DNA from: an uncultured Algibacter sp.
GTDB lineage: Bacteria > Bacteroidota > Bacteroidia > Flavobacteriales > Flavobacteriaceae
Length of the DNA stretch: 64,000 nucleotides
NCBI RefSeq assembly: GCF_947495925.1
Contig: NZ_CANMAU010000007.1
Span: 248,001 to 312,000, forward strand
Direction: 5' to 3'
Shown: positions 3,692 to 24,280 of the stretch, piece after piece
Numbering within the stretch: position 1 is the stretch's first letter
Layout of the letters: each line of letters opens with the position of its first letter
Made by a program: the position numbers and the translations under genes
The notes under the pieces: model-generated
Seen by the model: the letters and a program-made list of their open reading frames with translations, nothing else
Databases searched by the model: none
Told to the model about the DNA's origin: nothing

Positions 3692-3705
3692 ATAAAGGTC
3701 CTTTA

Positions 3706-4680: not shown

Positions 4681-4682
4681 AT

Positions 4683-5171
4683 ATGAGAAAATCTGCGATT
4701 ATTTTCAATAAAATAAACAAGATACTTGAGTGGTTTTTAATTATCATTTTCGCTTTGTTGGTTTTGGATGTGTTGTTTCAAGTGCTCTCGAGATATGTTT
4801 TAGGGACATCCTTTACATGGACAGAAGAGTTTGCAAGATTTGCTTTGATTTGGATGACTATTTTAGGGGCAGCATATCTCAATGCGAAAAAGGAGCATTT
4901 GTCAATGGATTTTTTATTTCAAAAACTTTCTAAGTCTAATCAAATAAAGGGGGCTATGCTTATTGAGGTTTTAGTATTTCTTTTTGCACTTGCAGTAATG
5001 GTTATTGGGGGCTTAAATTTGGTTTATACCACATTGCACCTAGAACAACTCTCTGGAACTATGAGAATTCCTTTGGGGTATATTTACGCTATTTTACCTT
5101 TTAGTGGCCTTTTGATTATGTGTTTTTCTGTATATCACATATATACTCTAATTAAAACAAATAATAAATAA
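4683..5171 (+). CDS. dctQ: TRAP transporter small permease (DctQ family)
   Basis: This 162-residue inner-membrane protein has four predicted helices (about residues 15-40, 48-65, 90-112 and 130-155). The ARFALIWMTILGAAYL segment is typical of the DctQ family. It starts 2 nt after dctP and its stop overlaps the first base of dctM, so the three genes form one unit. DctQ proteins act as obligate partners of DctM in Na+-dependent uptake. Confidence 0.9.
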   Translation: MRKSAIIFNKINKILEWFLIIIFALLVLDVLFQVLSRYVLGTSFTWTEEFARFALIWMTILGAAYLNAKKEHLSMDFLFQKLSKSNQIKGAMLIEVLVFLFALAVMVIGGLNLVYTTLHLEQLSGTMRIPLGYIYAILPFSGLLIMCFSVYHIYTLIKTNNK

Positions 5172-6816: not shown

Positions 6817-7587
6817 ATGAAATATATAAGGCTTGAAGTACAAAATAGAGTAGGTTATATTATAATTAATAAACCCAAAGCTAATAGTTATGACATAAAT
6901 TTTATGAAACTTATGTCTGAGACTATTGATGAAGCTATTGCAAATAAGGATGTTAAAGTTATTGCTTTAAAAAGTGAATTAACGAAATTTTTTTGTGCTG
7001 GGGCTGACATCAAGGTTTTTCAAGAAAATACAATTGCTGAAAATAAGAACATGGTTAGGCAAGCTAACCTTGTAGCTAACAAATTATCGGAAAGTCCAAA
7101 AATTACTGTAGCAATTTTGGATGGACATACACTTGGTGGTGGATTAGAACTTGCACTAGCATGTGATATGAGAGTAGCTTGTGATGGGGAGTTTTATTTA
7201 GGTCTATCGGAAATAAAGTTAGGGTTAATGCCTGGTAATGGTGGAACTCAGCGTTTAATTAGGTTAATTAACGAAAGTAAAGCTTTAGAGTTATTAATAA
7301 CTGGTAAATCTATATTGCCGGATCAGGCATTTGATTTAGGGTTGGTAAATCATTTTTATCCTAAAGATGAGTTTGAAGAATCAACTAAAGTATACCTTGA
7401 AGAATTGGCCAAGGGACCTCTACAGGCTATGAGCGCAGTTAAGCAGAGTGTATACAAAGGTTTAGAAATGCCTTTGAAAGCAGCTCTTGAATTGGAAACA
7501 AAATTAGCAGATTCTTTATATGATACAGAAGATGCCAAGGAAGGCTTAATGGCTTTTATAGAAAAAAGAGATTCAAAATTTATTTAA
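6817..7587 (+). CDS. Enoyl-CoA hydratase/isomerase family protein
   Basis: This 256-residue crotonase-fold protein has the oxyanion-hole segments FCAGADIK (59-66) and GGGLELALACD (107-117). Both catalytic glutamates of true enoyl-CoA hydratases appear to be kept: Glu111 in GGGLEL and Glu132 in LSEIKLG. This favours hydration of an enoyl-CoA over a divergent crotonase role. It stands alone between the uronate operon and the agar cluster, with its own leader region. No acyl-CoA dehydrogenase, thiolase or CoA ligase gene is nearby, so its link to polysaccharide use is unclear. Confidence 0.85.
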   Translation: MKYIRLEVQNRVGYIIINKPKANSYDINFMKLMSETIDEAIANKDVKVIALKSELTKFFCAGADIKVFQENTIAENKNMVRQANLVANKLSESPKITVAILDGHTLGGGLELALACDMRVACDGEFYLGLSEIKLGLMPGNGGTQRLIRLINESKALELLITGKSILPDQAFDLGLVNHFYPKDEFEESTKVYLEELAKGPLQAMSAVKQSVYKGLEMPLKAALELETKLADSLYDTEDAKEGLMAFIEKRDSKFI

Positions 7588-7751: not shown

Positions 7752-10232
7752 TTATTCAAAACCTCTGGCTATGGGCATTTTTTCATCGGCTTCAGTAAAA
7801 CCTGCTTCACCACCTAAACTTGGGTAGTACCTAAAGTAATTTGCCCAACCATATTTTTGTTTTATATCAAAGGCCTCTAGTCCAATTGCTCTAAGCTTTT
7901 TGCGATCTTTTTCTTTGTCAGCAACCAATAACATATAATCATTCTTAGATAAGGTATTACCTTCAAGATCTGTAAGTGAAATTTCAGTATAAAAATTGTC
8001 CCCAATATGGCCTGGAACTTTAAATGAAACATCAGCAAATTTCTTTGAGCTGTCTCCCTTAATTTCTGATATTTCAAATTTTTCTTTTTGAATAATAGAT
8101 TTGTTATTATCCAAAAAATCAATGGTTACCGTACAATTATTAAAGGATTTGTAGAAATCATTAACAACCCATAATTCGCCTATAAACATTTCTCCAGGTA
8201 GCCAACGCCTATCATAATGTTTCATGGTAATTAAGAGAGGTTGATATGCCTTTTTAACATAATCAAAAGATGTCTTTTTTTCTTGATAGTAGTCTACAAT
8301 TCCCCATTTCATATCTGGTGCAAATGTGATATAGTGACAAATACAAATAGCACTAGTTTTAGGTTTTCGTGTTCTAAAATGTTCCAAAGCATACTGAAAA
8401 ATAACACCTTGCGCTATTTGAGTAGCTTCAACAAATTTTTCAAGTCCATCTCTAGACTGATCTCCTAAAACTTCAAAGTTTAAAGTTCGCAGAGCATCAA
8501 AATCTGTCCAGTGGTGTCCCCAGCTTGGACCAGGCGGCCAAATTTCGTCAGATGGAATAAACTTTTTAATACTTTCAACATTAGGACAAGAGGAAATGGC
8601 TAATTCTGGAATTACAGCATAGTCTAAACTTGGAAAATACTCTTCCATTACAAATTCGCCTTCACCGTAAAATAAGTCATTCGCATGAAAACTCTCATTA
8701 GGTTTAAAACCAAGATTTAACCCAACTTCATCACTTAAAGGAGAAGAAGGAATATAGTATAATGACGTGTAAGGTTTGATTGCTTCCCCTAACTCATTTA
8801 CAAATTTAAGATTATGCTCTGGATCGGAAGCGGTCATAAATAATTCTTCTGAACCTTCTAAAAGTACAATACATGGATGATTACGTTGCGCTTTTACTGA
8901 TGAAATTGCTTCACTAAACACTGCATCCTTAAACTCTTGGTCTTCTGGTAACGACAAACTGGCTAAAGGTAAAACATCTTGCCATACCGTTATTCCAGCT
9001 TCATTACATAATTGATAAAACAAAGGAATTTCTTCGGGATGCCAACCAAAAATTCGAAGATTATTAAAATTTGCTTCTTTAGCCAAACGAATGAGCTCTT
9101 TATACTTACTTGGATGTGCTCTCCCCATAAAAATATCGGGTGGTCCTCCCCAAGTTCCCGAACGCATAAAATGGCGTTTACCATTAATCATTACGGTCCA
9201 AGGATTTTCAACTTGCTCTCTGGTAAACCCTGGGTTATGCACCATTTCAACTTCTCTAATTCCAAAAGAAGTAGTCGTAGTATCTAATAAAGTATCTTTA
9301 TCTTCTGTAATGGTAACTTCAGCTATATATAGATTTTGATCCCCTAAATCCCATGGCCACCATAATTTAGCATTATCAATATTTAAACTTAATTCGATGT
9401 TATTATCACCTTCCGAAATTGAAAGAGACTGATTGGTTTCATAAGTTTCAGATTCAAAATTGTCACCTTTAACTTTAAGGTTTACATTTACTTCTTTTTT
9501 CGAAACGACATGATTCTTAAGGGCAATTTCAACGTCTAAAGTAGCTGAGTTTTCTGAAATAATAGTTGATTTAATATAAGTATCTTCTATGGTCACCTTT
9601 CCTGTTCCTTCTAAATAAACTGGTTTCCATATACCGGTAGGAGGTAAGCTTACCCAATAGTCTCCATGCCATGCCGGTTTACGTCCTGCGACCTGACTAT
9701 AGCGTCTCGGAGCAGGATGTAAGCGAATCATTAATACATTAGTGCCAAAGCGCAAATTTTCAAACCTTATGGTTTCTGATACATCAAACTTAAACTGAGA
9801 AAACATACCCTCATGAGTACCCAAAAACTTGCCATTTAACCATACATCGCATCCAAAATCAATCCCATCAAAAACAAGTTGGATGTGTTTTCCATGCATT
9901 TCTTTGGGTACATCAAACTGTCGTTTATACCACCACTCGTTTTCCGGAACCCACTTAGCCTTTAAACTGTTTCGTCCAAAATGAGGGTCTTCAATACGTC
10001 CGGCTCTCCATAAGTCTGTATAAACATCACCAGGAACCTTGGCAAAACTCCAGTTAAAGGAATCACCAGTTATATCAAAATTTAATTCATGAAAACCTAT
10101 TTTAACACCTTCATCAGGACGAATTCCTTCAAACTGCCAATTGTTTCCACATAAATCAAAAACAACTTTTTCATTAGAGTTTATACCTTTACTTGATAAA
10201 TATTCTCTTTCTTCTTGACTGATGTTTTTCAT
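7752..10232 (-). CDS. Glycoside hydrolase family 2 protein (beta-mannosidase-like, no signal peptide)
   Basis: This 826-residue GH2 enzyme has an N-terminal jelly-roll (about 25-215), an immunoglobulin-like domain (215-330) and a TIM barrel (from about 340). The likely acid/base is Glu463 in the NHPCIVLLEGSEEL segment, which replaces the usual GNNE of beta-mannosidases. The nucleophile is tentatively Glu543 in AVIPELAIS. There is no signal peptide, unlike the two GH2 enzymes at 55.8-62.4 kb, so it probably acts inside the cell on imported oligosaccharides. It abuts the GH50 gene (stop 10233, start 10232). Sequence style points to the beta-mannosidase subgroup, but the agar context makes a beta-galactosidase on galactan fragments a reasonable alternative. 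Confidence 0.8.
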   Translation of the reverse strand: MKNISQEEREYLSSKGINSNEKVVFDLCGNNWQFEGIRPDEGVKIGFHELNFDITGDSFNWSFAKVPGDVYTDLWRAGRIEDPHFGRNSLKAKWVPENEWWYKRQFDVPKEMHGKHIQLVFDGIDFGCDVWLNGKFLGTHEGMFSQFKFDVSETIRFENLRFGTNVLMIRLHPAPRRYSQVAGRKPAWHGDYWVSLPPTGIWKPVYLEGTGKVTIEDTYIKSTIISENSATLDVEIALKNHVVSKKEVNVNLKVKGDNFESETYETNQSLSISEGDNNIELSLNIDNAKLWWPWDLGDQNLYIAEVTITEDKDTLLDTTTTSFGIREVEMVHNPGFTREQVENPWTVMINGKRHFMRSGTWGGPPDIFMGRAHPSKYKELIRLAKEANFNNLRIFGWHPEEIPLFYQLCNEAGITVWQDVLPLASLSLPEDQEFKDAVFSEAISSVKAQRNHPCIVLLEGSEELFMTASDPEHNLKFVNELGEAIKPYTSLYYIPSSPLSDEVGLNLGFKPNESFHANDLFYGEGEFVMEEYFPSLDYAVIPELAISSCPNVESIKKFIPSDEIWPPGPSWGHHWTDFDALRTLNFEVLGDQSRDGLEKFVEATQIAQGVIFQYALEHFRTRKPKTSAICICHYITFAPDMKWGIVDYYQEKKTSFDYVKKAYQPLLITMKHYDRRWLPGEMFIGELWVVNDFYKSFNNCTVTIDFLDNNKSIIQKEKFEISEIKGDSSKKFADVSFKVPGHIGDNFYTEISLTDLEGNTLSKNDYMLLVADKEKDRKKLRAIGLEAFDIKQKYGWANYFRYYPSLGGEAGFTEADEKMPIARGFE

Positions 10233-12380
10233 TTAATTTTTACTTTGTTTTTGTTTTGTAGAATTGTTGATTCTATAGTCATACATTGAATATGTAGTTT
10301 CCTTGACTTTTTCAATTAATTCTTCATATGGGTTATCACAAATATCTATAAACCCGACGTTATAATTTTCACCATCAAAACGTCCAGTATTGGGTTCGTC
10401 TAAATACTGAAACCAATGCGCACCAACAATATTAGGGTGTCTTAAAGCACCATGAATATAATCTTGGTACATCTGTCCGCGTTCTACTTGATTTCTAGCT
10501 TTTTTAACACCAGAATGAAAACTTCCCTTATCTAAAGCGCCAAAATGAAATTCACCTATCATTACAGGTTTATCGACTCCTTCAGGAAGTTTGAAATTTT
10601 CGATACTATACTCATATTTATTAAAACTCATTATGTCTAAATAGCGGCCTGCCGCAGTTAAAACAATATCATTGTTTGCCCAAGCAAATCTACATCCTAA
10701 ATAATTTTGATTAGGAGCTACCTTTTTTAACTCTTCATTTATGGTTCTAAAATAGGTTTCGGCAATATGCTTATAGAAATCGAGTAAATCTTGTTTTGAA
10801 TTTTCTTTGTTCGGAACTGCATTTGAATTTTGTAGGTTTTCCCATGACGTATATGAGGTGTTCCATATTAAGTTCAAAGCTTCAATAGTTTTATATTTTA
10901 ATTTAAGAACTTTTACGAACTCAATTTTAGCCGGTTGTTCGGCAGGACTTTTCAACGTTCCTATAGCTAAGGAACCTGGTAATCCCCAAGACAATTCATT
11001 ATCCACAAAGTAGCCAATGCACCAGGGGTCATTAGCACCTTCTTTTTGCATTTTTACAGACTTTTTTACGGCTTTTCTGAATTTTGGATCAAATACATCA
11101 TGAAACTTTCCCCAAAATCCATCAGAACCTTCAATTTTTGGGGTATTGTTAATCCAAATTGATCCTACATATGCCGTTTTATGTTGTCTTGTGGCTCCGA
11201 AATCAGACACAAAACCAATGGTATTCATTCCCCAATTTTTGATTCTTTTATGCGCGGTACTTCTAAATGTATTTAACCAGTCTTTTCCGTATTTTTTGTA
11301 AAGATTGCTTTGGTAAAAACTAAAGGTTTCATATGGTAATTTATCTTTATAAAATCCATGAGAAGCAAATGTTCCAGTGCCATAAAACTTGCCAAATTCA
11401 GTATCCTTTTTTGGTAAATGCTTAAAGTATTTTTTTCTATGAGAAATACCCGTTGAAGCAGCTTTGGAAGACACACAATTTAACCCTGCCGTCCAGAAAA
11501 GATATCCTTCAGGATCAACAATCCACCATTTGTTATTATATTTTTGAGTTCTGAAAAAACCTGTAGCATTTAATTGAGGTCCTTTTTCCCATCCACCAAA
11601 TTTACCTAAGCCTTCAGGCCCAAGTTTATTATTTAATGAAGCCTGCTCTTTTTTACCGCTTTCTATTAACTCATCAATTGAATGCATTTTTCCATCCCAA
11701 TCTGCGTGTATATATTGTCCAAACCCGTCAATAAAAGGGAAGAAGTTTTCAGGGTTACGTATTTTAAGCCTTTTCTCAGCTCTTACATTATCTACTGTAA
11801 AATTTGTAGTTGTTGTAGCATAACGCGAATTAAAAGATACTTGATTTATTTTTTTTATATCCGTTTTAAGTTTACCAGGCACTCCTCGCATGCCTTTGAC
11901 ATCTAATTGGGGTAAAAAGATCCATGGTGTCCAAGCCAAATCAACTGAGATAGTTTTTGATTCTCCAGGATTTAAGTCTACGTAATCTGAACAATACCAT
12001 TTTACTAAATCGTCAGGATCGTTACCTACAAAAAACTCTACTTGAATTTGTTCATCTCCAATATTAGTTACATCGGCCTTTACTCGTTGATAACCAGATA
12101 GATTCCAAGGTTTATGTTTAGGTTGGGTAATTATTACTCCAGGCTTAGATATTTCATAGCCACTATTAACTTTTAAAATATTGCTTTTCGAATCATTTAT
12201 TACTTCGAATGAGGCGTCCTCTGTTTTTATTTGCGAATTACTAAAATCATCATCAAAATCTAATAAAACCAATATGCTATTTTCTTTCTGCGCATATACT
12301 TTGTGTCCAATATTTAAAGCGATAATTAATGATAATAAAATTACATAGTTTAAAGGCTTTAGTTTTGGAATAGTTTTCAT
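10233..12380 (-). CDS. GH50 family beta-agarase (exo-type)
   Basis: This 715-residue secreted enzyme has a signal peptide ending near VYAQ (residue 30), an N-terminal beta-sandwich resembling the carbohydrate-binding-like domain of GH50 enzymes (about 35-205), and a clan GH-A TIM barrel. The start of the barrel region (DGFGQYIHADWDGKMHS, from 218) is characteristic of GH50. The acid/base is Glu462 in GYFVDNELSWG and the nucleophile is Glu610 in MIGEFHFGALDKG. GH50 agarases typically release neoagarobiose from agarose and neoagaro-oligosaccharides. It sits between the sugar porter gene and a leaderless GH2, with GH117 just beyond. No GH16 or GH86 endo-agarase is present, so longer chains must be cut by enzymes encoded elsewhere. 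Confidence 0.9.
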   Translation of the reverse strand: MKTIPKLKPLNYVILLSLIIALNIGHKVYAQKENSILVLLDFDDDFSNSQIKTEDASFEVINDSKSNILKVNSGYEISKPGVIITQPKHKPWNLSGYQRVKADVTNIGDEQIQVEFFVGNDPDDLVKWYCSDYVDLNPGESKTISVDLAWTPWIFLPQLDVKGMRGVPGKLKTDIKKINQVSFNSRYATTTTNFTVDNVRAEKRLKIRNPENFFPFIDGFGQYIHADWDGKMHSIDELIESGKKEQASLNNKLGPEGLGKFGGWEKGPQLNATGFFRTQKYNNKWWIVDPEGYLFWTAGLNCVSSKAASTGISHRKKYFKHLPKKDTEFGKFYGTGTFASHGFYKDKLPYETFSFYQSNLYKKYGKDWLNTFRSTAHKRIKNWGMNTIGFVSDFGATRQHKTAYVGSIWINNTPKIEGSDGFWGKFHDVFDPKFRKAVKKSVKMQKEGANDPWCIGYFVDNELSWGLPGSLAIGTLKSPAEQPAKIEFVKVLKLKYKTIEALNLIWNTSYTSWENLQNSNAVPNKENSKQDLLDFYKHIAETYFRTINEELKKVAPNQNYLGCRFAWANNDIVLTAAGRYLDIMSFNKYEYSIENFKLPEGVDKPVMIGEFHFGALDKGSFHSGVKKARNQVERGQMYQDYIHGALRHPNIVGAHWFQYLDEPNTGRFDGENYNVGFIDICDNPYEELIEKVKETTYSMYDYRINNSTKQKQSKN

Positions 12381-12385
12381 TTCAT

Positions 12386-13945
12386 TTAGTTAATTAGAAT
12401 ATCTTCGAGTTCTTCAAGGGATTTGCCCTTAGTTTCTGGAACTTTTATCCAAATTAAAACAAAACCTATAACGGCAAAAATTCCAAAAAGAAGGAAAGTC
12501 ATTGAATTACCAAGTTTAGAAAGTTCCCATGGGAATAGGAGTTGAACTAAAAAGGCAACAGCTAGATTAATTAAACCAACAAAGGAAATAGCAATACCTC
12601 GGATTTTTGTTGGAAATAATTCGGAAAACAACACCCACATAACAGGACCTATTGACATAGCAAAAGCGCCTACAAAACCTATTATGCCAATAAGAATTAA
12701 TAAGGTGTTCATTTTGGCTGAAGCTGTTACTAAAGCAGATTCATATGTACTTGCTGAATCCTCACCTAGAACTGAAACAATAGCAGCTTTAAAGTCTAAG
12801 TCATTTTCAAAAACTTGATCTTGCAAAGGCGCAAGATGCTCTTTGTTAATTTCATTTGGTAAACCAGCTATAGCTTCTTCTGTAAGGGTGTAGGTAGCAT
12901 CATTAAACCCATAGCTTAGCAGAAACAAACAAATAGCAATTCCAGCCATCCCAATAATAAGAAGAGGTTTTCTACCAAGTTTATCAATGGTTAATATGGC
13001 TACAATTGTAAAGCCAAGATTTGTTAACCCAACAAGAGCTGCTTGAATAAATGAGGCATCAGTACCGATTCCTGTTTGTTCAAAAATCATTGGGGCATAG
13101 AATAACACTGCATTTATACCCACAATTTGCTGAAAGACACCAACAATTAAACCTATAACAATAACCTTTCGCATAGACTTTTTGAATAGGTCGTTAAGCT
13201 TCGATTTCTTTTTGTTTTTATCTTCAGAAATACTTTGTTCAACCTCTTTAATTTGTTGTAGTGCATCTTCTTCAGATAGCACTTTTTGCATTACCTCTAG
13301 CGCTTCTTCTTTTTTGTTTTGAACCATTAACCATCTTGGGCTTCTAGGTACTATAAAGAGTCCAAAATAATAGAGTAGTGCAGGTATGGCTTCTAAACCA
13401 AGCATCCAGCGCCAGTTCCATTTACCAAACCCCATTGATACTGCCCAGGCAGAATCAGAATTACCCCATTTTAGAATGAGGTAATTGGTAAAAAAAGCTA
13501 TCGAGATACCAATAACAATATTTAATTGGTTAAATGATACTAATTGCCCCCTTTTTTCGGGTGGAGCTACTTCAGCTATGTACATGGGTGCAATTATAAG
13601 TGCAGCACCAACGGCTAAACCACCAATCATTCTAAAAATAATTAACCAGAAAAATGTTCCTGCTAAAGCTGAACCAACGGCAGAAATAGTAAAAAGAACT
13701 GCGGCGTACTTTAGAAGCTTTCTTCTACCATACTTATCACTCATTGGACCGGCTATCATCATTCCTACTGCAGCTGTTAACGTAATCGAACTTACAGCCC
13801 ATCCTAGTTGGAGTTTTGTAAGATCAAATTCTGGTTCAATAAATTTTACTACTCCTGAAATGACCGATGCATCAAAGCCTAATAGGAATCCACCTAGCGC
13901 AACAATTGCAGCTATTCGGATAACATAAAGTTGTTTTGTTGACAT
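12386..13945 (-). CDS. MFS sugar porter (sugar/H+ symporter)
   Basis: This 519-residue inner-membrane transporter of the sugar-porter family (XylE/GalP type) has twelve predicted helices and family signatures: DKYGRRKLLK after helix 2, PRSPRWLM before the central loop, DKLGRKPLL between helices 8 and 9, and PETKGKSLEELE at the C-terminus. A hydrophilic insert of roughly 60 residues (about 350-410) lies between helices 9 and 10. It is flanked by GH50 and GH117, which release D-galactose and AHG, so D-galactose is the most likely substrate. A neutral oligosaccharide is less likely for this family. Confidence 0.88.
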   Translation of the reverse strand: MSTKQLYVIRIAAIVALGGFLLGFDASVISGVVKFIEPEFDLTKLQLGWAVSSITLTAAVGMMIAGPMSDKYGRRKLLKYAAVLFTISAVGSALAGTFFWLIIFRMIGGLAVGAALIIAPMYIAEVAPPEKRGQLVSFNQLNIVIGISIAFFTNYLILKWGNSDSAWAVSMGFGKWNWRWMLGLEAIPALLYYFGLFIVPRSPRWLMVQNKKEEALEVMQKVLSEEDALQQIKEVEQSISEDKNKKKSKLNDLFKKSMRKVIVIGLIVGVFQQIVGINAVLFYAPMIFEQTGIGTDASFIQAALVGLTNLGFTIVAILTIDKLGRKPLLIIGMAGIAICLFLLSYGFNDATYTLTEEAIAGLPNEINKEHLAPLQDQVFENDLDFKAAIVSVLGEDSASTYESALVTASAKMNTLLILIGIIGFVGAFAMSIGPVMWVLFSELFPTKIRGIAISFVGLINLAVAFLVQLLFPWELSKLGNSMTFLLFGIFAVIGFVLIWIKVPETKGKSLEELEDILIN

Positions 13946-13971
13946 AATTCTAGTTTAGTTAGTAATTTTAG

Positions 13972-13998
13972 TCAAGTAGGTTTCGATCAAGTAGGTTT
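13972..13998. repeat. Short direct repeat between the MFS and GH117 genes
   Basis: TCAAGTAGGTTT occurs twice, at 13972-13983 and 13987-13998, with a 15-bp period. It lies in the 65-bp gap between the GH117 stop and the MFS start, so it forms part of the MFS leader on the - strand. A small regulatory repeat or a local duplication are both possible. Confidence 0.5.
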
Positions 13999-14010
13999 GA
14001 GTAAGATGTG

Positions 14011-15222
14011 TTATTCTTTGCTCTCTCCCTTAGCTGTGTGGTGCTTTTTATTCCAAGTTCTAAAACCTCTTATATATTGATAATCTCCTGTTTTATATTG
14101 GTGCGTTAGTCCCCAACGCAATATTTCAGTTGGGTTTTTCTCAGTATCAGCTGTTCTATTTAAGCCAATAGCATGAGGAGCTCCTTTCACAACTCCTTTT
14201 ATTTCAAAGTTAATACCATCTGGAGACCATTGTACTGTGTTTTTTTCTGGTCCATCTGTAGTAATTAAAGATGCTATTCCTCCATTATATGGCCACACAC
14301 AAATTTCATGACCACTATTTGAAATAGGGTTGTATTCTGATTTTACATATGGGCCTTTTGGGTTATCAGCTATAGCAACTCCGTGTCTTATTTGACGACC
14401 ACCAAATGTAATGGCTTCACCCATTTGCTCTCCCTTGTAGTATAAATAGAATTTCCCGTTATAAGGAATAATGCAAGGATCGTGGACTTTATGACTATCA
14501 AAATCACCTTTTTTATCAACTGCAAAACGATTTTGCTTTTCGCCTTTCCATATACCATTATCAGCAGGACTTAAAATAGGTTTCTTAGACTTTTCCCATG
14601 GCCCATCTATAGACTTTGACCATGCCAATCCTATTTGATTTTTAACTCTTACAGTATAAGGGGACTTAACAGTTTGATAGCATAGGTAATACGTATCTTC
14701 ATGTTTCATAATTTCAACAGTGAATACTGAACGATCATCATAAGCGCCTTTGTCTCCTCTTTTTACTGCAGGACCTATTTCTTTCCATGTTAATCCATCT
14801 TCAGAGGTTGCATACCAGATATCACATCTGTCCCAAGGAAAAACTTTACTCTTTTCAATATCTCCAGCAAAACCATCAGTAGGACCAGTAGATCTTGTAT
14901 ACCAAACATAGTATTTTCCATTCTCTTTAATCATAGCACTTGGGTCTCTACGAACGACACCTTCTTCATAGGCTAAGTCACCTTTTAAATCAAATACTTC
15001 GTATTCAAAAAACCATTCGTTTCCTAGTGCCATGTCCCATTCTAAAGCACGTTTTGAAGCTGCACTAAGCTTTTTTATATTTGTTATACCAAGAAAATCT
15101 TGTTGTTCATCAGTAATATTCATTTCACTATTTTGCTGTTTAATTTCTTTTTCTTCTTCTTGCTTACACGAAATACCTGTTAAAATAATACAAGTAAGAA
15201 ATATATATATAATTTTTTTCAT
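14011..15222 (-). CDS. GH117 alpha-1,3-(3,6-anhydro-L-galactosidase)
   Basis: This 403-residue lipoprotein (lipobox GISC, Cys19) has a five-bladed beta-propeller of family GH117. It removes 3,6-anhydro-L-galactose from the non-reducing end of neoagaro-oligosaccharides. The N-terminal dimerisation segment SAASKRALEWDMALGNEW (53-70) is highly characteristic of the family. The catalytic set described for GH117 is all present: Asp93 in RRDPSA, Asp248 in KVHDPC, and His305-Glu306 in SGHEICVW. It sits beside GH50, a permease and the AHG-metabolising enzymes, which fits this function closely. Being a lipoprotein, it should act in the periplasm or at a membrane surface before AHG is carried across the inner membrane. 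Confidence 0.95.
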   Translation of the reverse strand: MKKIIYIFLTCIILTGISCKQEEEKEIKQQNSEMNITDEQQDFLGITNIKKLSAASKRALEWDMALGNEWFFEYEVFDLKGDLAYEEGVVRRDPSAMIKENGKYYVWYTRSTGPTDGFAGDIEKSKVFPWDRCDIWYATSEDGLTWKEIGPAVKRGDKGAYDDRSVFTVEIMKHEDTYYLCYQTVKSPYTVRVKNQIGLAWSKSIDGPWEKSKKPILSPADNGIWKGEKQNRFAVDKKGDFDSHKVHDPCIIPYNGKFYLYYKGEQMGEAITFGGRQIRHGVAIADNPKGPYVKSEYNPISNSGHEICVWPYNGGIASLITTDGPEKNTVQWSPDGINFEIKGVVKGAPHAIGLNRTADTEKNPTEILRWGLTHQYKTGDYQYIRGFRTWNKKHHTAKGESKE

Positions 15223-15261
15223 GTTTGGTTTGAGTCTAGAGGTTGTAATACTTCTATTTGA

Positions 15262-16287
15262 TTATTTTAAACTATTACTGTACGCCACTATAAGAATACC
15301 CAATACCATACATGTTAAGCCGAGGTATAGAAACTTTCTTGCTTTTGGTGATGCTTTAACCCATTCTTTTGTTACAAGACCACTAATAATGGCAGTTACT
15401 ACACAAGATGTATTAAAAATGGCGTAACCAACGCTTCCACCTAATTCTTTTCCTAATTTAAAACCGGCATAAGCGAATACTACAGAAGCAGCAAAATTAA
15501 ATACGCCCATAATTGAAGTAAGCATTATGTTTTTACCTAAATGTGGTGTTTTAAATTTACCCCATAACTTTTTTGCAGATAATTGTTGTATAAAATATAT
15601 GGCAATTGCTACACCTCCTGCCATGTATATAACATACATCACAGCAATAGCACTTTTCCATGATTCATTGCCTTGAGCTTGCGAAGCTGTATCAATTATT
15701 TCGCCACCAGCAGCATAGGCATAACTAAAACCAGTAGCTAACAAGCCTCCAATTACAGCAATTAAGATCCCAGTAATCATGGAACCACTTTTTGTTGTTT
15801 CTGTATTACTATCATTGTCTTTTTCTTCATCCTTTTGACGAATTATTCCTGCTTTACCATTAGCCATTACGCCTATAAGAACAACCGCTAAACCAGCCAA
15901 AATGGTTAATAAAACATTCGTTTTAGGTAGACCGACTTCAATGAATGGTAAAAGAGACCCTACTAAAATGATTGTTCCTATGAAAATTGAGAAGCCTAGA
16001 GATAAGCCGATATAATTTATAGCTTTCCCCCACATCATAGCTCCAATTCCCCATAGGATACTGCAAATTATCATCGTTATTAAAGCTTTAGTGGGAATAG
16101 CAGCTAGAACATCAGCAAATCCATCAATTAACAAAAAAGCAGCAATATTAGGTACCACAAACGTGTTGATAGCGAAAAACATACTCCATGTGTTTTCGAA
16201 TTCGTAGTCTTTAGTAAATTTTTCAGGTAAGGCATAAAGCCCTAATAATAATCCTGCTAGGATTGCAAAAAAAACGCCTGTAATCAT
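15262..16287 (-). CDS. RhaT-family sugar/H+ symporter, candidate AHG or L-galactose permease
   Basis: This 341-residue inner-membrane protein has ten predicted helices in two halves, joined by a charged central loop (about 149-170). The N-terminal half (LLLGLYALPEKF, then WSMFFAINTFVVPNI) and the later GVFNFAASVVFAYAGFKLG segment are typical of L-rhamnose/proton symporters (RhaT). No rhamnose catabolic gene is nearby. It lies between GH117 and the mutarotase, in the same direction as the AHG enzymes, so it may have been recruited for another L-sugar: AHG, or L-galactose from porphyran. The family assignment is good; the substrate is inference. Confidence 0.8.
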   Translation of the reverse strand: MITGVFFAILAGLLLGLYALPEKFTKDYEFENTWSMFFAINTFVVPNIAAFLLIDGFADVLAAIPTKALITMIICSILWGIGAMMWGKAINYIGLSLGFSIFIGTIILVGSLLPFIEVGLPKTNVLLTILAGLAVVLIGVMANGKAGIIRQKDEEKDNDSNTETTKSGSMITGILIAVIGGLLATGFSYAYAAGGEIIDTASQAQGNESWKSAIAVMYVIYMAGGVAIAIYFIQQLSAKKLWGKFKTPHLGKNIMLTSIMGVFNFAASVVFAYAGFKLGKELGGSVGYAIFNTSCVVTAIISGLVTKEWVKASPKARKFLYLGLTCMVLGILIVAYSNSLK

Positions 16288-16316
16288 AATTATTTAGTTT
16301 TGGTTAGTAAAAAAAA

Positions 16317-17363
16317 TTACCAGTTGAATTTGAACTGGGTAGTACTTTTAAATGTTTCACCTGCCTTGGTTATTGAACTTGGTGAATTTTCAATATTCGG
16401 TCCGTTAGGGTAACGATGTGTTTCGCAGCAGAAGCCTCTATATTTTCCAAACTGTTGGCCATTCTCACGCTTTAGAGCATCTGAAGTATATTTACCTGTA
16501 TATAGTAACATACATGGCTCAGTTGTTGAAACTGTTAATGATCTACCCGAGTCCGGACATGTAATTTTAGCGGACTCGATGAAATCTGCTTTTTCATTAT
16601 CTAAGATATAGAAATTTTCAAATCCGTCTCCCATACCTTCATGCGCATCACCAATTCTTTTTGGTTTACGCATATCATCCGCAGCTCCTTCTACATTAAT
16701 TATATTTCCCGTGGCTGCTCCGGTATCATCACACTCTAACTTTGTATTAGCATTAACTTGTGCTAAATGGCACTCTACATTAGAATGAAACGCGTTTAAG
16801 TTAAAGTACGTATGATTTGTTAAAGACAAAGGAGTATCTTCATCCGGAGTTCCTAAATAATCAATATTTAATTCATTATTATTTGTTAAAGTGAATGTTA
16901 CTTCAATATCTACATTTCCTGGAAAACCTTCTTCTAAAGAATTGCTTTTTAAAGACATTTTTATACCTGAACCTTTCTCATTTTCAAAAGTTTCAGCACT
17001 CCAAACTTTTTTATCAAAACCAACAGCTCCTCCATGTAGGTTATTAGGGCCACAATTATTGGCTAATTGATAATCTTTTCCATTTAGAGAAAATTTAGCA
17101 TCTTTAATTTGAGAGCTGTAACGACCAACCGTGCATCCAAAATAAGGTGCATTATCTACATAGTCTTTATTGAAATATCCATCAAGCGTATCAAAACCAC
17201 AGGCTATATTTTCTATATGACCCTTGCTGTCCGGAACCTTAATTGTAGTCACCGTTGCTCCGTAATTAGTGATTTTAACTTCAACACCATTAGCATTTTT
17301 TAAGGTGTATTCTTTAACGGTTTCGCCGTTTAACAATCCGAAATCTGAAATAGTTGTACTCAT
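16317..17363 (-). CDS. galM: Aldose 1-epimerase (mutarotase)
   Basis: This 348-residue GalM-family protein interconverts alpha and beta anomers of aldoses such as galactose. The catalytic His110 (NNLHGG), His184 (TNHTYFNL) and Glu314 (FCCETHRYPNGPN) are in place. It has no signal peptide, so it should act in the cytoplasm after sugar import. It lies in the agar cluster between the RhaT-like permease and the cycloisomerase gene, and probably serves released galactose. A role on another hexose cannot be excluded. Confidence 0.92.
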   Translation of the reverse strand: MSTTISDFGLLNGETVKEYTLKNANGVEVKITNYGATVTTIKVPDSKGHIENIACGFDTLDGYFNKDYVDNAPYFGCTVGRYSSQIKDAKFSLNGKDYQLANNCGPNNLHGGAVGFDKKVWSAETFENEKGSGIKMSLKSNSLEEGFPGNVDIEVTFTLTNNNELNIDYLGTPDEDTPLSLTNHTYFNLNAFHSNVECHLAQVNANTKLECDDTGAATGNIINVEGAADDMRKPKRIGDAHEGMGDGFENFYILDNEKADFIESAKITCPDSGRSLTVSTTEPCMLLYTGKYTSDALKRENGQQFGKYRGFCCETHRYPNGPNIENSPSSITKAGETFKSTTQFKFNW

Positions 17364-17394
17364 TTAAATATTTTTTAGATTTAAACTAAACGTA

Positions 17395-17437
17395 ATAATA
17401 GTTGATAATATAATTCAAATTTATTATCAACTATTAT
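17395..17437. other. Intercistronic 16-bp inverted repeat
   Basis: The perfect inverted repeat 17395-17410 / 17422-17437 with an 11-nt loop lies in the 88-bp gap between the cycloisomerase stop and the galM start. Read on the - strand it would form an AT-rich RNA hairpin without a following U-run, so it fits an mRNA processing or stabilising element better than a simple terminator. The palindromic core AGTTGAT/ATCAACT could also be a protein site. Confidence 0.55.
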
Positions 17438-17451
17438 AACATTCATTTAGT

Positions 17452-18549
17452 TTATTTATTTTCCTCGTAAGGTGCTAATTTCTCCCAGTCAAATATAACT
17501 CCAACACCAGGGTAATCTGGCGCAACAGCTCTATAATTTTCAACTACCAAAGGTCTAGTAGTATACTCATCAATTGGGAAACTATGCACTTCTAACCAAC
17601 CAGAGTTAGGTTGTGAAGATACTAAACTTACGTGTAATTCTTGCATACCATGTGAGCATGCAGGAATTCCGTGTTTATCTGCCATTCTTGCTGCTGCTAA
17701 CCAGCCTGTTACACCACCACAGTTAGAAGCATCTGGTTGCACAAACGATAACTTTGCTTGGTCGAAAGCATATTCAAATTCATGAATAGTGTGTAAATTT
17801 TCTCCCATGGCTAATGGGAAACCTGTAGCATCTGCAATTTCTCCAAAACCTTTGTAGTTATCCGGAATAATAGGTTCTTCGAACCAAGTAATATTATACT
17901 GTTTGAAACCTTCAATGGCTTTAATGGCTTTTTCAATGGTCATTGAATAGTTGGCATCCACCATAAACGTCACATCTGGACCAATATATTCTCTAACAGC
18001 TTTGATACGCTCTAAATCTTCTTCAAGATTTTCTCTACCAATTTTAATTTTCACGGCATTAAACCCTTTTGCAAGATAACCTTTCATGTTATCCAATAAT
18101 TTTTCAATTGGAAACATTAAATCAATACCACCGCAATAGGCTTTACAGGTGTTTCCTTGTCCACCTGCCATTTTCCATAATGGTTGCCCCGCTTTTTTAC
18201 AACGAATATCCCATAAAGCAATATCGACAGCAGAAATTGCAAAGGATGCAATTCCACCACGACCTACATAATGTACGTGCCATTCTAAAAAGTCGTAAAT
18301 GCCTTCAATATCGGTTCCGTCTTTTCCAATTAGTGCATTAGTAAAGTCATGTTCTATCATGGCCTTAATAGAAAAACCACCCTTTCCTCCAGTATAAGTG
18401 TAACCCGTTCCTTCGCTACCATCTTCAAGGGTTATGGTTACTGTAACCAATTCAAAATGGTAGTGATCTCCATGTTTTGCATCAGACATTACTTCAGGTA
18501 ATGGCACTGTAAATAAACGTGTTTTTACACTTGAAATCTTTGTACTCAT
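17452..18549 (-). CDS. 3,6-anhydro-L-galactonate cycloisomerase (enolase superfamily)
   Basis: This 365-residue enzyme of the mandelate-racemase subgroup would convert 3,6-anhydrogalactonate to 2-keto-3-deoxygalactonate (EC 5.5.1.25). Catalytic Lys167/Lys169 (VKIKIG), metal ligands Asp198, Glu224 and Glu250, and His300 in CSHGMQELH are all present. The N-terminal stretch [13 protein letters not shown] and the [11 protein letters not shown] loop closely resemble the Vibrio enzyme as I recall it, which sets it apart from rhamnonate or galactonate dehydratases. Its start overlaps the stop of the aldehyde dehydrogenase gene by one base, so the two steps are translationally linked. Carrageenan degraders use a related enzyme on the D-isomer; GH50 and GH117 nearby favour the L-isomer. 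Confidence 0.92.
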
Positions 18550-20009
18550 TACTTTTTTGGGTTATGTCTTACGTAGAATGTTTTCTTCTCTAAATATTGC
18601 TCGAAACCATATTTTCCATCTTCTCCACCAGAACCTGATAATTTGTACCCGTTGTGGAAACCTTGGTGTTGTTCTCCATGACCTCTATTTACATAGATTT
18701 CGCCATATTCCAACTCATCATTACATTTCATTATCGTATTCATATCATTTGTGAACACCATAGCAGCCAACCCATATTCACAATCGTTTGCATATTCAAC
18801 CACTTCATCAAATGTTTTGAATTTTAAAACAGGTAAAATTGGACCAAATGCCTCTTCGTGAACGATTGTCATATCTTGAGTAACATTAGTTAGTACCGTT
18901 GGCTCAAACCAATAGCCGTTTTCAAATTGTTTCCCTTCTGGACGTTTTCCTCCAGTAGCAAGTGTAGCACCTTCTTCAAGACTAACAGCAACTAAATGTT
19001 CCATGTGTTTTAACTCGGAAGCATTTACTTTTGGCCCCATATCGGTATCTTCTAACATAGGATCTCCAACTTTAATACCTTTGGTAGCAGCTATAAATTT
19101 CTCCATGAATACATCATAAATATCTTCATGCACGTACATACGTTCGTTACAAGTACAAACTTGCCCACAATTATCAAAACGAGAATGTAATGCAGATTCT
19201 ACAGCTGCATCAATATCAGCGTCTTCAAAAACAATAAAAGGGGCTTTTCCTCCTAGTTCTAATTGTACATGTGTTAAGTTTTGGGCAGCATTTCTTGCTA
19301 TTTGTTGACCTACAGGCGTCGATCCTGTCATGGTCACCATTTTACATAAAGGGCTTTCCACTAAGGCGTTACCCATAGCACGTCCTGGGCCGGTTAAAAT
19401 ATTAATTACACCTTTAGGAATACCAACTTTATTAGCAAGGTTTCCTAGCTCAAGTGTAGATATTGGTGTTTCAGATGTTGGTTTAATTACAATTGAATTT
19501 CCAGCAACTAAAGCTGGACCTAATTTACGTCCTGCTAAGGCCAATGGGAAATTCCAAGCCGTAATAGCTACCACAACTCCTCGAGGTACTTTTTGAATCC
19601 AAATTTGTTCGTTTGGATTATCAGAAGGAATAATATCTCCTTCAATTCTTCTTGCACCTTCAGCTGCATATCTTATAAATGAGGCTGTAACAGCAACCTC
19701 AAAACGAGCTACTTTTAATAGTTTACCTTGTTCTTTCGTTAATAATACAGCTAGATGCTCGGTATTGGCTTCAATTTCATCAGCTAATTTATATAACAAA
19801 TCAGCACGTTCACGAGCTGGTAATTTTTTCCATTCTTTTTGTGCTTTATCTGCATGTTCTAATGTTTCTAAAGCTTCTTCAGCTGTTCCATTTTGAACAC
19901 GAGCAACAACCTCTTCTGTTGAAGGGCTAATAATATCAATAGTTTCTCCTGAAGTTGATGTTCTCCATTCACCATTAATAAACAATTTGTAATCTTTAAT
20001 TTCTGCCAT
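18549..20009 (-). CDS. 3,6-anhydro-L-galactose dehydrogenase (aldehyde dehydrogenase family)
   Basis: This 486-residue NAD(P)-dependent aldehyde dehydrogenase is close to the AldA (lactaldehyde dehydrogenase) branch. Catalytic Cys285 (CGQVCTC), Glu251 (LELGGKAP), Asn153 (AWNFPLA) and Lys176 (VIKPTSE) are present. In agar degraders this branch oxidises 3,6-anhydro-L-galactose to 3,6-anhydro-L-galactonate (EC 1.2.1.92). The one-base overlap with the cycloisomerase gene, which would use the product, makes that role likely here. Lactaldehyde oxidation is the main alternative from homology alone. No signal peptide; cytoplasmic. Confidence 0.9.
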
Positions 20010-20019
20010 AATTTTTTAG

Positions 20020-21447
20020 TTAATTATTAATTTTTGGTTTTCTGTATTTATCCATTCTGGATGCCGCTTTGCCTTCGTATAGCCTTTTTAATTGCCAAAG
20101 TGGTCTTTCTAATGTTAATTCCCAATCGAATAACATGCTGTATAATTCTTTTACTTTGTCAGGATATATTGAAGCTAAATCGTTTGCCTCAGAGATATCT
20201 TCTTCTAGATTATATAACTCTGCCGGTCTGTCTGGAAAACGAATTAGTTTATAATTAAAATGTCTAATAGCTGCTCTTGATTCCTTTTTCCAATATAAAG
20301 TTTCATGAGGTAGTCCTTTGTTGGTATTGGTAATAAAAGGTATTAAATTCACACCATCTAAGTCTTTAATGTTTTCTTGTTTTCCGTCTGCAACAGATAG
20401 AAATGTTGGTAATAAGTCTAAAGTAGAAATAGGCTTGTTGAAAGTAGTGTTCTTATCAAGTTTACCTTGCCATGACATTAAAAAAGGTATACGAATACCT
20501 CCTTCTAAATGATTAGCTTTTGTTCCGCTAAGCGGAAAATTACTTGAAGCGTTAGAATCGGAGGGACCACCATTATCATTTGCAAAAACAATAAGAGTGT
20601 TTTTTTCTAGACCTAAATCTTTTATTTTGTTTAATACATGTCCGCAAGCTCGGTCTAAAACAATAGTCATTGCAGCTAAAGTACGGCGCTTACCAGTAAG
20701 ATGCTTAGGTACTTTTTTTAAATCGTCTGCTCTAGCTTCCATAGGCGTGTGTACGGCATTAAATGAAAGAAAAACAAAGAATTGGTTATTTTTATTTCGC
20801 TCTATAAATTTTACTGTTTCTTTAGCTAAAGCATCTGTTAGATAGATATCACTTTCTTTAAAATTTTTAAAATTACGTTCTAGTTTTTTAGAAGTTTTAT
20901 TCTTTTGTTCTTCGTCCGTATATTCGAAATAACTTCTTGCGCCACCTCTAAAACCATAAAACTCATCAAAACCTCTTTTTATTGGGTGATATCGATCTGC
21001 ATTACCCATGTGCCATTTTCCAAAAAGCGCTGTTTTATAACCTAGTTTTTTAAGGTATTGTGCTACTGTAGTTTGGTCTAAGGGTAAACCCATTTCATCA
21101 CCTAATAAACCAGAAGAACTCATATATCCAGGGACATTATTTTCTTCAAAACCAAATTTTTGTTGATATTTTCCTGTTAAAATACCTGCTCTAGAAGGCC
21201 CACAAACAGCTGCTGACACGTAGGCTTGTGTAAACTTAACTCCACTTTTTGCTAAAGCATCTAAATGGGGTGTTTTAAAATCTTTGCTTCCTTGAAAACC
21301 AAAATCCGCATAACCAGCATCATCAGACAAAATAAAAACAATGTTTGGTTTAGATTGAGCCTGAATATTACTAATAGTTATAACTACAATCATTATAAAA
21401 AACAATGATTGTAGTTTCTTAATTTTTTTTGATTTTCTAAAGTTCAC
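20020..21447 (-). CDS. Secreted formylglycine-dependent sulfatase (S1 family)
   Basis: This 475-residue type I sulfatase has a signal peptide ending near IQAQ (residue 30). The sequence [13 protein letters not shown] holds the C-x-P-S-R motif; Cys82 would be oxidised to formylglycine by a maturase not encoded in the window. Metal-binding Asp-Asp ([10 protein letters not shown], 41-50) and the central GKWHMG motif are present. It lies inside the AHG cluster between the aldehyde dehydrogenase and the KduD-like gene, so it probably removes sulfate from agar or porphyran oligosaccharides. The position of the sulfate cannot be read from the sequence. Confidence 0.9.
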
Positions 21448-21465
21448 CTTTTATTAAATGATAAA

Positions 21466-22236
21466 CTATCTTCCCATCCAACCACCGTCAACAAGAACGA
21501 TAGATCCATTCATATATCCTGCGGCATCGGATGCTAAAAACACAGTTGGTCCAGCAAAATCAGTCGCTTTACCCCAACGACCTGCAGGGATACGCGAAAG
21601 AATAGATTCTGAACGCACAGGGTCATTTCTTAACGCTTCAGTATTATCGGTAGCAATGTAACCCGGCGCAATAGCATTTACGTTAACGCCTTTTCCTGCC
21701 CATTCGTTAGCAAATGCCATAGTCATTTGACCAATAGCTCCTTTTGAAGCGGCGTATCCAGGAACTGTAATACCTCCTTGGAATGTTAGTAGAGATGCTG
21801 TGAAAATTATTTTTCCCGATTCTCTCTTTACCATTTCTTTCCCGATTTCTCTAGTTAAGATAAATTGAGCATTTTGGTTCACTTCAATAACTTTATCCCA
21901 CATTTCATCAGGATGTTCAACAGCAGGAGCTCTTAAAATAGTACCTGCATTATTAACCAAAATATCTATTTTCGGATGATCAGCTTTTACAGTTTCAATA
22001 AACTTGTAAAGTGATTTTCTATCTGAAAAATCACATTGGTAAGCACTGAAATTTTTTCCAACTGCCTGTACTTCTTTTTCAACAGCACTACCACTTAATT
22101 CTAATGATGCCGACACACCAATAATGTTTGCTCCGGCCTCGGCTAAACCAACAGCCATTGCTTTTCCAATTCCACGTTTACAACCCGTTACTAAAGCTGT
22201 TTTTCCTTCTAAACTAAATGTGTTTAAAATACTCAT
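21466..22236 (-). CDS. KduD-like SDR, putative 2,5-diketo-3-deoxygalactonate C5-reductase
   Basis: This 256-residue classical SDR has cofactor motif TGCKRGIG (17-24), NNAG (95-98) and catalytic Ser148, Tyr161 and Lys165. It closely resembles KduD along its length, including the LLTFQGGITVPGYAASKGA region and the C-terminal VDGGWMGR. KduD interconverts 2,5-diketo-3-deoxygluconate and KDG. In the known AHG pathway of agar degraders, 2-keto-3-deoxy-L-galactonate is oxidised at C5 and the diketo acid is then reduced to KDG. This gene and the adjoining zinc dehydrogenase form a natural pair for those steps. Which of the two oxidises and which reduces is inferred from the KduD likeness. Confidence 0.85.
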   Translation of the reverse strand: MSILNTFSLEGKTALVTGCKRGIGKAMAVGLAEAGANIIGVSASLELSGSAVEKEVQAVGKNFSAYQCDFSDRKSLYKFIETVKADHPKIDILVNNAGTILRAPAVEHPDEMWDKVIEVNQNAQFILTREIGKEMVKRESGKIIFTASLLTFQGGITVPGYAASKGAIGQMTMAFANEWAGKGVNVNAIAPGYIATDNTEALRNDPVRSESILSRIPAGRWGKATDFAGPTVFLASDAAGYMNGSIVLVDGGWMGR

Positions 22237-22261
22237 TTTATTTTGTTTTTCTATTTATAAA

Positions 22262-23278
22262 TTATGCTTGACAATCCATTAATACCTTTAAGCCATCAGG
22301 ATTATTGTCAATGTTTTCAAACACCTGTTGAATATTGCTTAGAGGTTGTACATCTGTAATCATATCTTCAAAAGGCAACTTGTTTTCAGTAATTAGATTA
22401 ATTGATTTTTCATAATCTTCTCTTTCATATACTCTAGCTCCAATTAATTTTAATTCTTTCCAAAAGAATTTAAACAAGTCAATTGGTTTTTTCTCACCAT
22501 GAATGGCAACCATTAAAATTCTTCCTCTAATCCCTGCCACTTCGGTCATGACGTCTAGGGCAGGCTGTACACCAGCTACTTCAAAAACAACGTCCGCTTT
22601 TCTACCTTCAGTTTTTCCGTGAACATATTCAACTAAATCAACCTCTATAGGACTAACAGCGTCAAAACCTAACTCTTTAGCTTTTGCAATACGTGCAGGG
22701 TTTACTTCGGAAATAATAACTTGAGCACCTACCTCTTTAGCCACCATAGCGACAAGTAAACCTATTGGTCCGCCACCTAACACAACGGCTGTTTCTCCTT
22801 CAATAAGCCCACTAAGACGTACGTCATGAGTTGCAACAGATAAAGGTTCAATAAGCGCTGCCAATTTGAGATCTGTGTTTTCCTTTAATTTGTGCAATGT
22901 AAAGGCAGGAACATTCCAATATTGTTGCATGGATCCAGGGCTATCAATTCCTATAAAGTTTAATTCTTCACAGATATGATTAAACCCTTTGTCAGAAGGT
23001 TTTGCTTTAGAATCATCAAGCGGACGTACCACAACTTTGTCTCCAATTGAAAAACCAGAAACTCCTGATCCAACTGCATCAATGATTCCTGACATTTCAT
23101 GCCCTATAGTTTGAGGCATATCTACTCTTTTGTCCATCATACCATGATAGATGTGAACATCTGTACCGCATACTCCCGAAAAAGCTACCTTAATTCGTAC
23201 CTCACCTGAAGCTGGTTCTGTTACTTCTCTTTCTACTACGCTGAAGGTTTTATTACCTTCATATTGTGTTGCTCTCAT
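22262..23278 (-). CDS. Zinc-dependent alcohol dehydrogenase, putative 2-keto-3-deoxy-L-galactonate 5-dehydrogenase
   Basis: This 338-residue medium-chain dehydrogenase has catalytic-zinc residues Cys37 (GVCGTD), His60-Glu61 (IGHEMSG) and Glu144, and NAD-binding motif GGGPIG (168-173). The four-cysteine structural zinc lobe is missing: only one Cys remains near residue 103, so that site has been lost. It is the first gene after the likely promoter of the AHG cluster and 25 nt before the KduD-like gene. The inferred reaction is oxidation of 2-keto-3-deoxy-L-galactonate at C5 (EC 1.1.1.389). Threonine or sorbitol dehydrogenase activity would be the default guess without the context. Confidence 0.82.
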   Translation of the reverse strand: MRATQYEGNKTFSVVEREVTEPASGEVRIKVAFSGVCGTDVHIYHGMMDKRVDMPQTIGHEMSGIIDAVGSGVSGFSIGDKVVVRPLDDSKAKPSDKGFNHICEELNFIGIDSPGSMQQYWNVPAFTLHKLKENTDLKLAALIEPLSVATHDVRLSGLIEGETAVVLGGGPIGLLVAMVAKEVGAQVIISEVNPARIAKAKELGFDAVSPIEVDLVEYVHGKTEGRKADVVFEVAGVQPALDVMTEVAGIRGRILMVAIHGEKKPIDLFKFFWKELKLIGARVYEREDYEKSINLITENKLPFEDMITDVQPLSNIQQVFENIDNNPDGLKVLMDCQA

Positions 23279-23488: not shown

Positions 23489-24280
23489 TTAAGATTTAAG
23501 ATATCCTAATTTTAATGAAATTTGCAAGGCATATTTGGTAATTATTGCTCCTTTTTTATTGAAGTCTTCGTGAGGTAATCTGCCATGTGGAGCTGTAATC
23601 CATAAAGACGCCACTGGATAGCCATACTCGTTAAAAATAGGGGCTCCAATACAATGAATACCTTGGATGTCTTCACCGTTATCTATAGCAAACCCTTTTT
23701 TCTTTACCTCATTCAATTCTTCTCTAAACGTTTTTTTGGAAGTGATCGTGTTTTTGGTAAATTTTGTAAGTGTTATTTTTTTTATTATTTCATTGGCTTC
23801 TTCGTTCGGTAAATTTGCTAAAATACATTTCCCTCCAACAGAACTATGTAATTTAAATTGTGTACCCTGTTCTACAAAAAGTTTTACAGGGTATGACGAT
23901 GAAACTTGTTCTAAAATAGTGCCTCTGTCTCCAAGTAATATGCCTAGCATCACAGATTCTTTTAGTTCATCCCTTAACGCTCGCATAACATCAATTGATG
24001 ATTCGACAATACTTTGTTCGTTCATCGAGGATATGCCAAGGGTTAGCATTTTTCTTGAGAGCGTTATTTTTTTTGTAGTCTCATTTTTTTGAAGATAGTT
24101 TTTAAAAATGAGTGTGCTAACAATTCTAAATACACTTGATTTTGAAATTGACAACATTTCAATAATCTCAGTTAGCGTTAATCCTGTTTTATGTTTTGCA
24201 AGAAGCTCGATAATTAAAAGTCCGCGCTCAAGATTGGGAACGTTGTAGTTAGATTTTAAATCACTGTTAGTTTTACTCAT
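23489..24280 (-). CDS. IclR-family transcriptional regulator
   Basis: This 263-residue protein has an N-terminal winged helix-turn-helix (about 13-75; LERGLLIIELLAKHKTGLTL opens it) and a C-terminal GAF-like effector domain (about 85-260, with the IQGIHCIGAPIFNEYGYPVA segment). It is transcribed in the same direction as the AHG genes and separated from the dehydrogenase gene by 210 bp holding the palindrome at 23308-23327, which is its most likely target. IclR members often sense sugar acids such as KDG, so AHG-derived acids are plausible effectors. A -7-like TATTTTTG box lies at 24308-24301 in front of its own start. Confidence 0.92.
   Translation of the reverse strand: MSKTNSDLKSNYNVPNLERGLLIIELLAKHKTGLTLTEIIEMLSISKSSVFRIVSTLIFKNYLQKNETTKKITLSRKMLTLGISSMNEQSIVESSIDVMRALRDELKESVMLGILLGDRGTILEQVSSSYPVKLFVEQGTQFKLHSSVGGKCILANLPNEEANEIIKKITLTKFTKNTITSKKTFREELNEVKKKGFAIDNGEDIQGIHCIGAPIFNEYGYPVASLWITAPHGRLPHEDFNKKGAIITKYALQISLKLGYLKS

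Follow-up and report, generated by a model that had tools for sequence, protein, structure and literature searches.

3,6-Anhydro-L-galactose (AHG) makes up half of agarose. In the literature examined its passage across the inner membrane is covered by proposals only, and no transport assay of an AHG permease was found in the open-licence texts searched, some of them seen as excerpts. In the agarose polysaccharide utilization locus (PUL) of Bacteroides uniformis NP1, the RhaT homologue np1_25 is upregulated and was proposed to import AHG, according to the excerpted report (Pluvinage et al., 2018, PMC5849685). Import of agarose monosaccharides by RhaT is repeated in the corresponding excerpt for B. 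uniformis JCM 13288 (PMC7553746), while another excerpt treats RhaT in a rhamnose context (PMC3870299). In the carrageenan PUL of Zobellia, the 'Sugar/H+ symporter (DMT)' ZGAL_3157 is, in the passages available, induced by carrageenan and D-AnG (Ficko-Blean et al., 2017, PMC5698469). A different route is outlined in part of a report on Saccharophagus degradans, which has a cytoplasmic GH117 and a candidate neoagarobiose transporter, AgaT (PMC3124978, Mar Drugs 2011). AHG import by RhaT is thus not a new idea, as the NP1 excerpt makes clear (PMC5849685), and comparative evidence is what is added here. In the open-licence texts searched, likewise partly excerpts, neither a clade-wide linkage of RhaT to 3,6-anhydro-L-galactonate cycloisomerase (ACI) nor a coupling to the location of GH117 was found. 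The protein analysed below belongs to a class that has been proposed before, and the evidence given here is better than what was found in print.

The window is a stretch of 64,000 nucleotides from an uncultured Algibacter sp. (contig NZ_CANMAU010000007.1). Its agar/AHG operon spans about 7752-23278, longer than the coordinates originally given, and consists of same-strand genes separated by small gaps. The predicted position of a RhaT homologue between GH117 and galM was confirmed: all three genes lie on the same strand, with gaps of 39 nt to GH117 and 29 nt to galM. The features are as follows.

7752-10232, minus strand: GH2 enzyme without signal peptide, cytoplasmic (sequence start and profile match)
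10233-12380, minus strand: beta-agarase with N-terminal signal (4bq2 B-AGARASE, 356 bits), which we take to be GH50-type
12386-13945, minus strand: MFS sugar porter (XylE-like), candidate disaccharide permease (profile match and locus comparison)
14011-15222, minus strand: GH117 3,6-anhydro-alpha-L-galactosidase with lipoprotein-type signal (LTGISC; 3p2n, 701 bits)
15262-16287, minus strand: RhaT/DMT-family permease, candidate AHG importer (ORF, Pfam/NCBIfam profiles, tree clade, predicted fold)
16317-17363, minus strand: GalM-type aldose 1-epimerase, no signal peptide seen (profile match)
17452-18549, minus strand: ACI (5xd7, 642.5 bits)
18549-20009, minus strand: aldehyde dehydrogenase (6j75 'Aldehyde dehydrogenase A', 729 bits), putative AHG dehydrogenase (AHGD) from operon context
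20020-21447, minus strand: S1 sulfatase (6prm exo-4S-kappa carrageenan S1 sulfatase, 629.7 bits)
21466-22236, minus strand: SDR, likely 2,5-diketo-3-deoxy-L-galactonate reductase (family match; name as in the Catenovulum AHG locus annotation)
22262-23278, minus strand: zinc alcohol dehydrogenase, likely 2-keto-3-deoxy-L-galactonate 5-dehydrogenase (role from the pathway)
23489-24280, minus strand: IclR-type regulator (profile match)

Read by eye, the starts of ACI, AHGD, galM and GH2 carry no recognisable signal. Since GH117 has a lipoprotein signal and ACI and AHGD have none, AHG should form outside the inner membrane and be consumed inside it, and a permease is needed. In the route that we propose, beta-agarases would cut agarose outside the inner membrane, where the lipoprotein GH117 would release AHG and D-galactose. 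The RhaT-like inner-membrane DMT permease would carry AHG inward, probably with a proton, and AHG dehydrogenase and cycloisomerase would turn it into 2-keto-3-deoxy-L-galactonate. This product would be passed on to KDG by the SDR and the zinc dehydrogenase, which likely fit the next two pathway steps (enzyme names as in the excerpted PMC10163077). Gene, operon, predicted fold, clade and linkage are read from sequence; substrate and direction of transport are what we infer, and proton coupling is suggested by analogy with RhaT. As the GH2 enzyme is without signal peptide, its substrate must be imported as well; among solved structures, a beta-mannosidase is closest to it in sequence (228 bits). 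An enoyl-CoA hydratase gene (6817-7587) adjoins GH2, and a hexuronate cluster with mannonate dehydratase, glucuronate isomerase and a complete TRAP transporter (1116-6475) lies beside the agar operon. Porphyran breakdown appears to be the theme of the second half of the window, where two GH29 genes and several sulfatases are encoded, among them the exo-L-galactose-6-sulfatase homologue at 47005-48690. Downstream of SusC/SusD genes, an ORF of 224 aa (34216-34890) has no Pfam match.

The arrangement resembles the NP1 system, for which the excerpted report places galM-RhaT beside AHG cycloisomerase and dehydrogenase (np1_25; PMC5849685). The sequence comparison with the NP1 type used a copy on the B. 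uniformis plasmid pBUN1. This copy is 49.6% identical to the window RhaT and falls into the same clade, and in both cases the gene lies beside ACI, AHG dehydrogenase and galM, as expected of a RhaT-like importer of agar operons. The two loci differ in that a sugar kinase is found next to RhaT on pBUN1, while in the window GH117 is followed by the MFS/GH50/GH2 module. ZGAL_3157 is named a DMT sugar symporter, and the window RhaT is likewise assigned to the DMT superfamily; according to the available passages ZGAL_3157 lies beside 3,6-anhydro-D-galactose genes (PMC5698469). It was compared by gene order only: two loci (L147, L150) share the order of ZGAL_3153-3159 as excerpted, yet their RhaT belongs to another clade. 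The S. degradans route, as far as the excerpt describes it, resembles that of RhaT-less relatives in having a cytoplasmic GH117 and an imported disaccharide, whereas the window combines a lipoprotein GH117 with RhaT.

The RhaT-like ORF starts with ATG and encodes 341 aa. It belongs to the Pfam family RhaT (PF06379; 77.1 bits, cut-off 27, residues 2-334). Its best NCBIfam model, PRK13499.1-2 'L-rhamnose/proton symporter RhaT', reached 317.9 bits and thus stayed under the cut-off of 369, and the other three PRK13499 cut-offs were missed as well (145.4/468, 85.5/523 and 72.3/509 bits). An AlphaFold2 model built from 19 sequences (pLDDT 82.7, pTM 0.81) matched LicB best (Z 27.2 over 273 residues; Foldseek, VIA-align 2), with the nucleotide-sugar transporter 5ogk (Z 21.2) and a triose-phosphate translocator (Z 19.1) among the next matches. 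A solved structure with sequence similarity was not found, the single match having an E-value of 0.071. The protein is therefore predicted to adopt the DMT superfamily fold, which says nothing on the substrate.

In a tree of 89 RhaT rows, built by a quick method, with several long branches and the G412 protein entered twice, a branch with SH-aLRT 100 separated all 67 rows from an AHG context from the others. This clade is set apart from E. coli RhaT and from rhamnoside-linked paralogues. E. coli RhaT shares Pfam family and DMT superfamily with the window RhaT, but the two are far apart in the tree (the placement of the E. coli protein being unsure) and lie in different operons. Residues specific for the AHG clade by alignment include E22, N32, K88, N143, N207, W210 and N292, and rhamnose-context rows differ at many positions fixed in the clade. 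Within the sampling, this RhaT subfamily was seen only in agar operons of Bacteroidota.

Paralogues elsewhere adjoin GH78-like genes, SDR and amidohydrolase genes or CoA-transferase-like genes; others lie in operons with aldehyde dehydrogenase and an enolase-type dehydratase, in some with DGOK kinase and aldolase (labels partly by eye). The last type is seen in L147, L150 and L145, where aldehyde dehydrogenase, enolase-type dehydratase and RhaT occur with a GntP permease or kinase/aldolase. These operons resemble the anhydro-D-galactose genes of carrageenan use, and L147 has a weak GH129 match next to it. A third RhaT subfamily (L135 9332-16674, L136, L137) is found beside aldehyde dehydrogenase and an enoyl-CoA-hydratase-like gene, and L135 also carries GH2 and MFS genes 82% identical to those of the window.

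For the distribution analysis ACI was chosen as anchor, so that RhaT does not select itself. ACI was detected in 32 of 397 genomes of the family and in 6 of 395 genomes of the phylum, and a search at order level gave no additional genomes. In the same 397 family genomes, RhaT of the window clade (E<=1e-60) was present in 29, all of them among the 32 with ACI, and in none of the 365 without (Fisher 5e-41, kinship ignored). Of the 33 ACI-anchored loci other than the window's own, 29 had RhaT no more than about 10 kb away from ACI; in G412 it is encoded in another locus (L139), beside galM and GH117. Conversely, 27 of 28 RhaT-anchored loci held ACI, and the 28th (L018), truncated within galM, holds GH117. 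Eight further genomes brought the ACI-positive set to 42, to which the 28 named loci were not added, as some stem from the same genomes (identical tree rows). Window-clade RhaT was present in 36 of these 42, the one in G154 being counted from fragments at contig ends. No intact copy was found in G107, G088, G1407, G1428, G703 and G1375, the contig of the last ending just past ACI. Among the 28 RhaT-positive loci in which the RhaT ORF is complete, 16 have no other ORF with at least six predicted TM segments. The clade provides a sequence marker for AHG users.

Ten of 17 plasmid matches to ACI were examined. The three from Bacteroidota all have RhaT beside ACI, in the unannotated Persicobacter plasmid by sequence search. 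Across the survey, the linkage of RhaT to ACI may come partly from transfer of whole operons. Outside Bacteroidota, the ACI loci of Roseibium and Geobacillus plasmids carry ABC systems and that of Rhodobacteraceae S2214 a TRAP system; the stretch viewed of the Catenovulum plasmid showed no annotated sugar permease, the Variovorax plasmid was unannotated, and on the Enterobacter and Thalassococcus plasmids no AHG operon was recognisable around the ACI relative.

The expectation that operons lacking RhaT encode a GH117 without signal peptide was noted alongside the first look at G107 and G088, when hit lengths had already hinted at it, and was restated before further genomes were fetched. A GH117 without signal peptide together with MFS was found in these two and then in G1407 and G1428, which belong to the same genus as G088 and are not independent. 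The signal-less GH117 genes start within about 20 nt of the preceding gene, which leaves no room for a signal. A GH117 start was readable in 36 of the 42 genomes (all but G428, G764, G178, G154, G1273 and G1375). GH117 was exported in all 31 readable genomes with RhaT, with hydrophobic, mostly lipoprotein-type starts, and non-exported in four of the five without (Fisher 8e-5, kinship ignored). Within these counts, the GH117 of G182, although frameshifted, was scored as exported on the basis of the start that could be read; that of G703 lacks an ATG start codon, yet its beginning resembles a lipoprotein signal; and for G412 the copy with RhaT in L139 was used, not one at the ACI locus. Among Bacteroidota, the GH117s that are not exported group in a single clade within the exported ones, so that a single evolutionary event is seen four times and the correlation is suggestive only; a paired-change test found one independent pair, for which no significance is claimed. 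The exception is G703, in which an exported GH117 is kept while a RhaT remnant (L092 11670-11897; 26 residues at 54% identity) sits at the expected place after galM and is followed by an SSF symporter. This is a natural loss of RhaT with the exported GH117 retained, and RhaT is therefore not strictly required.

The order in G1428 is ACI-galM-GH117-MFS, without RhaT and without GH117 signal, and that of the window ACI-galM-RhaT-GH117(signal)-MFS; such near-colinear operons with and without RhaT offer a direct genetic test. That Bacteroidota agar operons switch between exported GH117 with RhaT-type AHG import and cytoplasmic GH117 with an MFS neoagarobiose permease, the RhaT proteins being a dedicated AHG permease subfamily, is a reading to which we give an even chance. 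Under it the window would have parts of both strategies, RhaT with exported GH117 and MFS with cytoplasmic GH2.

Taken together, the clade-specific linkage to ACI, the monophyly of the AHG-context clade and the joint absence of RhaT and the GH117 signal peptide make AHG import the best-supported function of the window RhaT, and probably the correct one. Of the original prediction, a permease for AHG or L-galactose, the AHG part is thereby supported and the L-galactose part is less probable; the argument that had led to both, by way of the MFS porter, proved weak. That the RhaT protein imports L-galactose from porphyran, or L-galacto sugars in general, is unlikely. The cell probably releases L-galactose, as the window encodes an exo-L-galactose-6-sulfatase homologue (47005-48690; 7lha, 598 bits) and a GH29 close to fucosidase and exo-alpha-L-galactosidase (379 and 376 bits). 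However, only 3 of 41 ACI loci have such a sulfatase homologue at a distance of up to about 10 kb (L169, one of the three, lacks RhaT), no catabolic gene for L-galactose was recognised in the operon, and the linkage is to AHG enzymes.

Import of D-galactose, with galM as partner enzyme, would equally suit an exported GH117, which frees both sugars in the same compartment, so that the signal correlation alone does not choose between AHG and D-galactose. Although galM adjoins RhaT in the window and in most loci, the two are separable (RhaT without galM in L089, L175 and L186; galM without intact RhaT in L170 and L092), and a clade limited to ACI-positive genomes (0/365 others) is not what galactose use, which should be wider, would predict. 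Furthermore, the galactokinase gene of the same genome is grouped with genes interpreted as galT, another galM and a regulator of GntR type, and a divergent SSF symporter gene beside them would encode D-galactose's own candidate transporter. We regard D-galactose import by RhaT as quite improbable. The symporter also speaks against the earlier proposal that the MFS porter takes D-galactose and leaves RhaT for the L-sugar, as does the company that the porter keeps. MFS homologues above 60% identity occurred in 5 of 42 ACI loci, namely the window and the four RhaT-less loci with cytoplasmic GH117, and four of these five have a cytoplasmic GH2 in the same stretch. In the window the porter is found with GH50 and cytoplasmic GH2, and in G553 MFS and GH2 share a separate locus that encodes a different RhaT paralogue. 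Since it travels with cytoplasmic GH2 or GH117, a disaccharide appears a likelier substrate of the porter than D-galactose, and the S. degradans route provides a precedent (PMC3124978).

Import of neoagarobiose or agarobiose by RhaT itself would provide the cytoplasmic GH2 with a disaccharide to cleave, but is very unlikely: RhaT accompanies exported GH117 and is not found alongside cytoplasmic GH117, whereas a neoagarobiose importer should show the reverse pattern, and the MFS porter fits that role better. An ordinary L-rhamnose/proton symporter, suggested by Pfam RhaT membership and the NCBI family names, is rejected as barely credible, because the protein scores under all four PRK13499 cut-offs, is separated in the tree from E. 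coli RhaT and GH78-linked rows, and belongs to a clade whose loci carry AHG genes, in a genome without RhaA.

The absence of rhamnose genes nearby, noted originally, was borne out, as no rhamnose-catabolic families were found among the window proteins scanned with Pfam and RhaA (PF06134) had no match in the whole genome; the context of the gene is an AHG operon rather than rhamnose catabolism. In marine Bacteroidota, an annotation as 'RhaT' often need not mean rhamnose uptake. The genome contains three RhaT-family genes, the one in the window and two outside it, of which one (L005) adjoins a gene read by eye as PEP carboxykinase and the other (L004) CoA-transferase-like genes. The latter lies in a recurrent cluster (L004 4515-12243, L152, L153, L154) of two CoA-transferase-like genes, two solute-binding-like proteins, seemingly without signal peptides, and a Gfo/Idh-like gene (names by eye).
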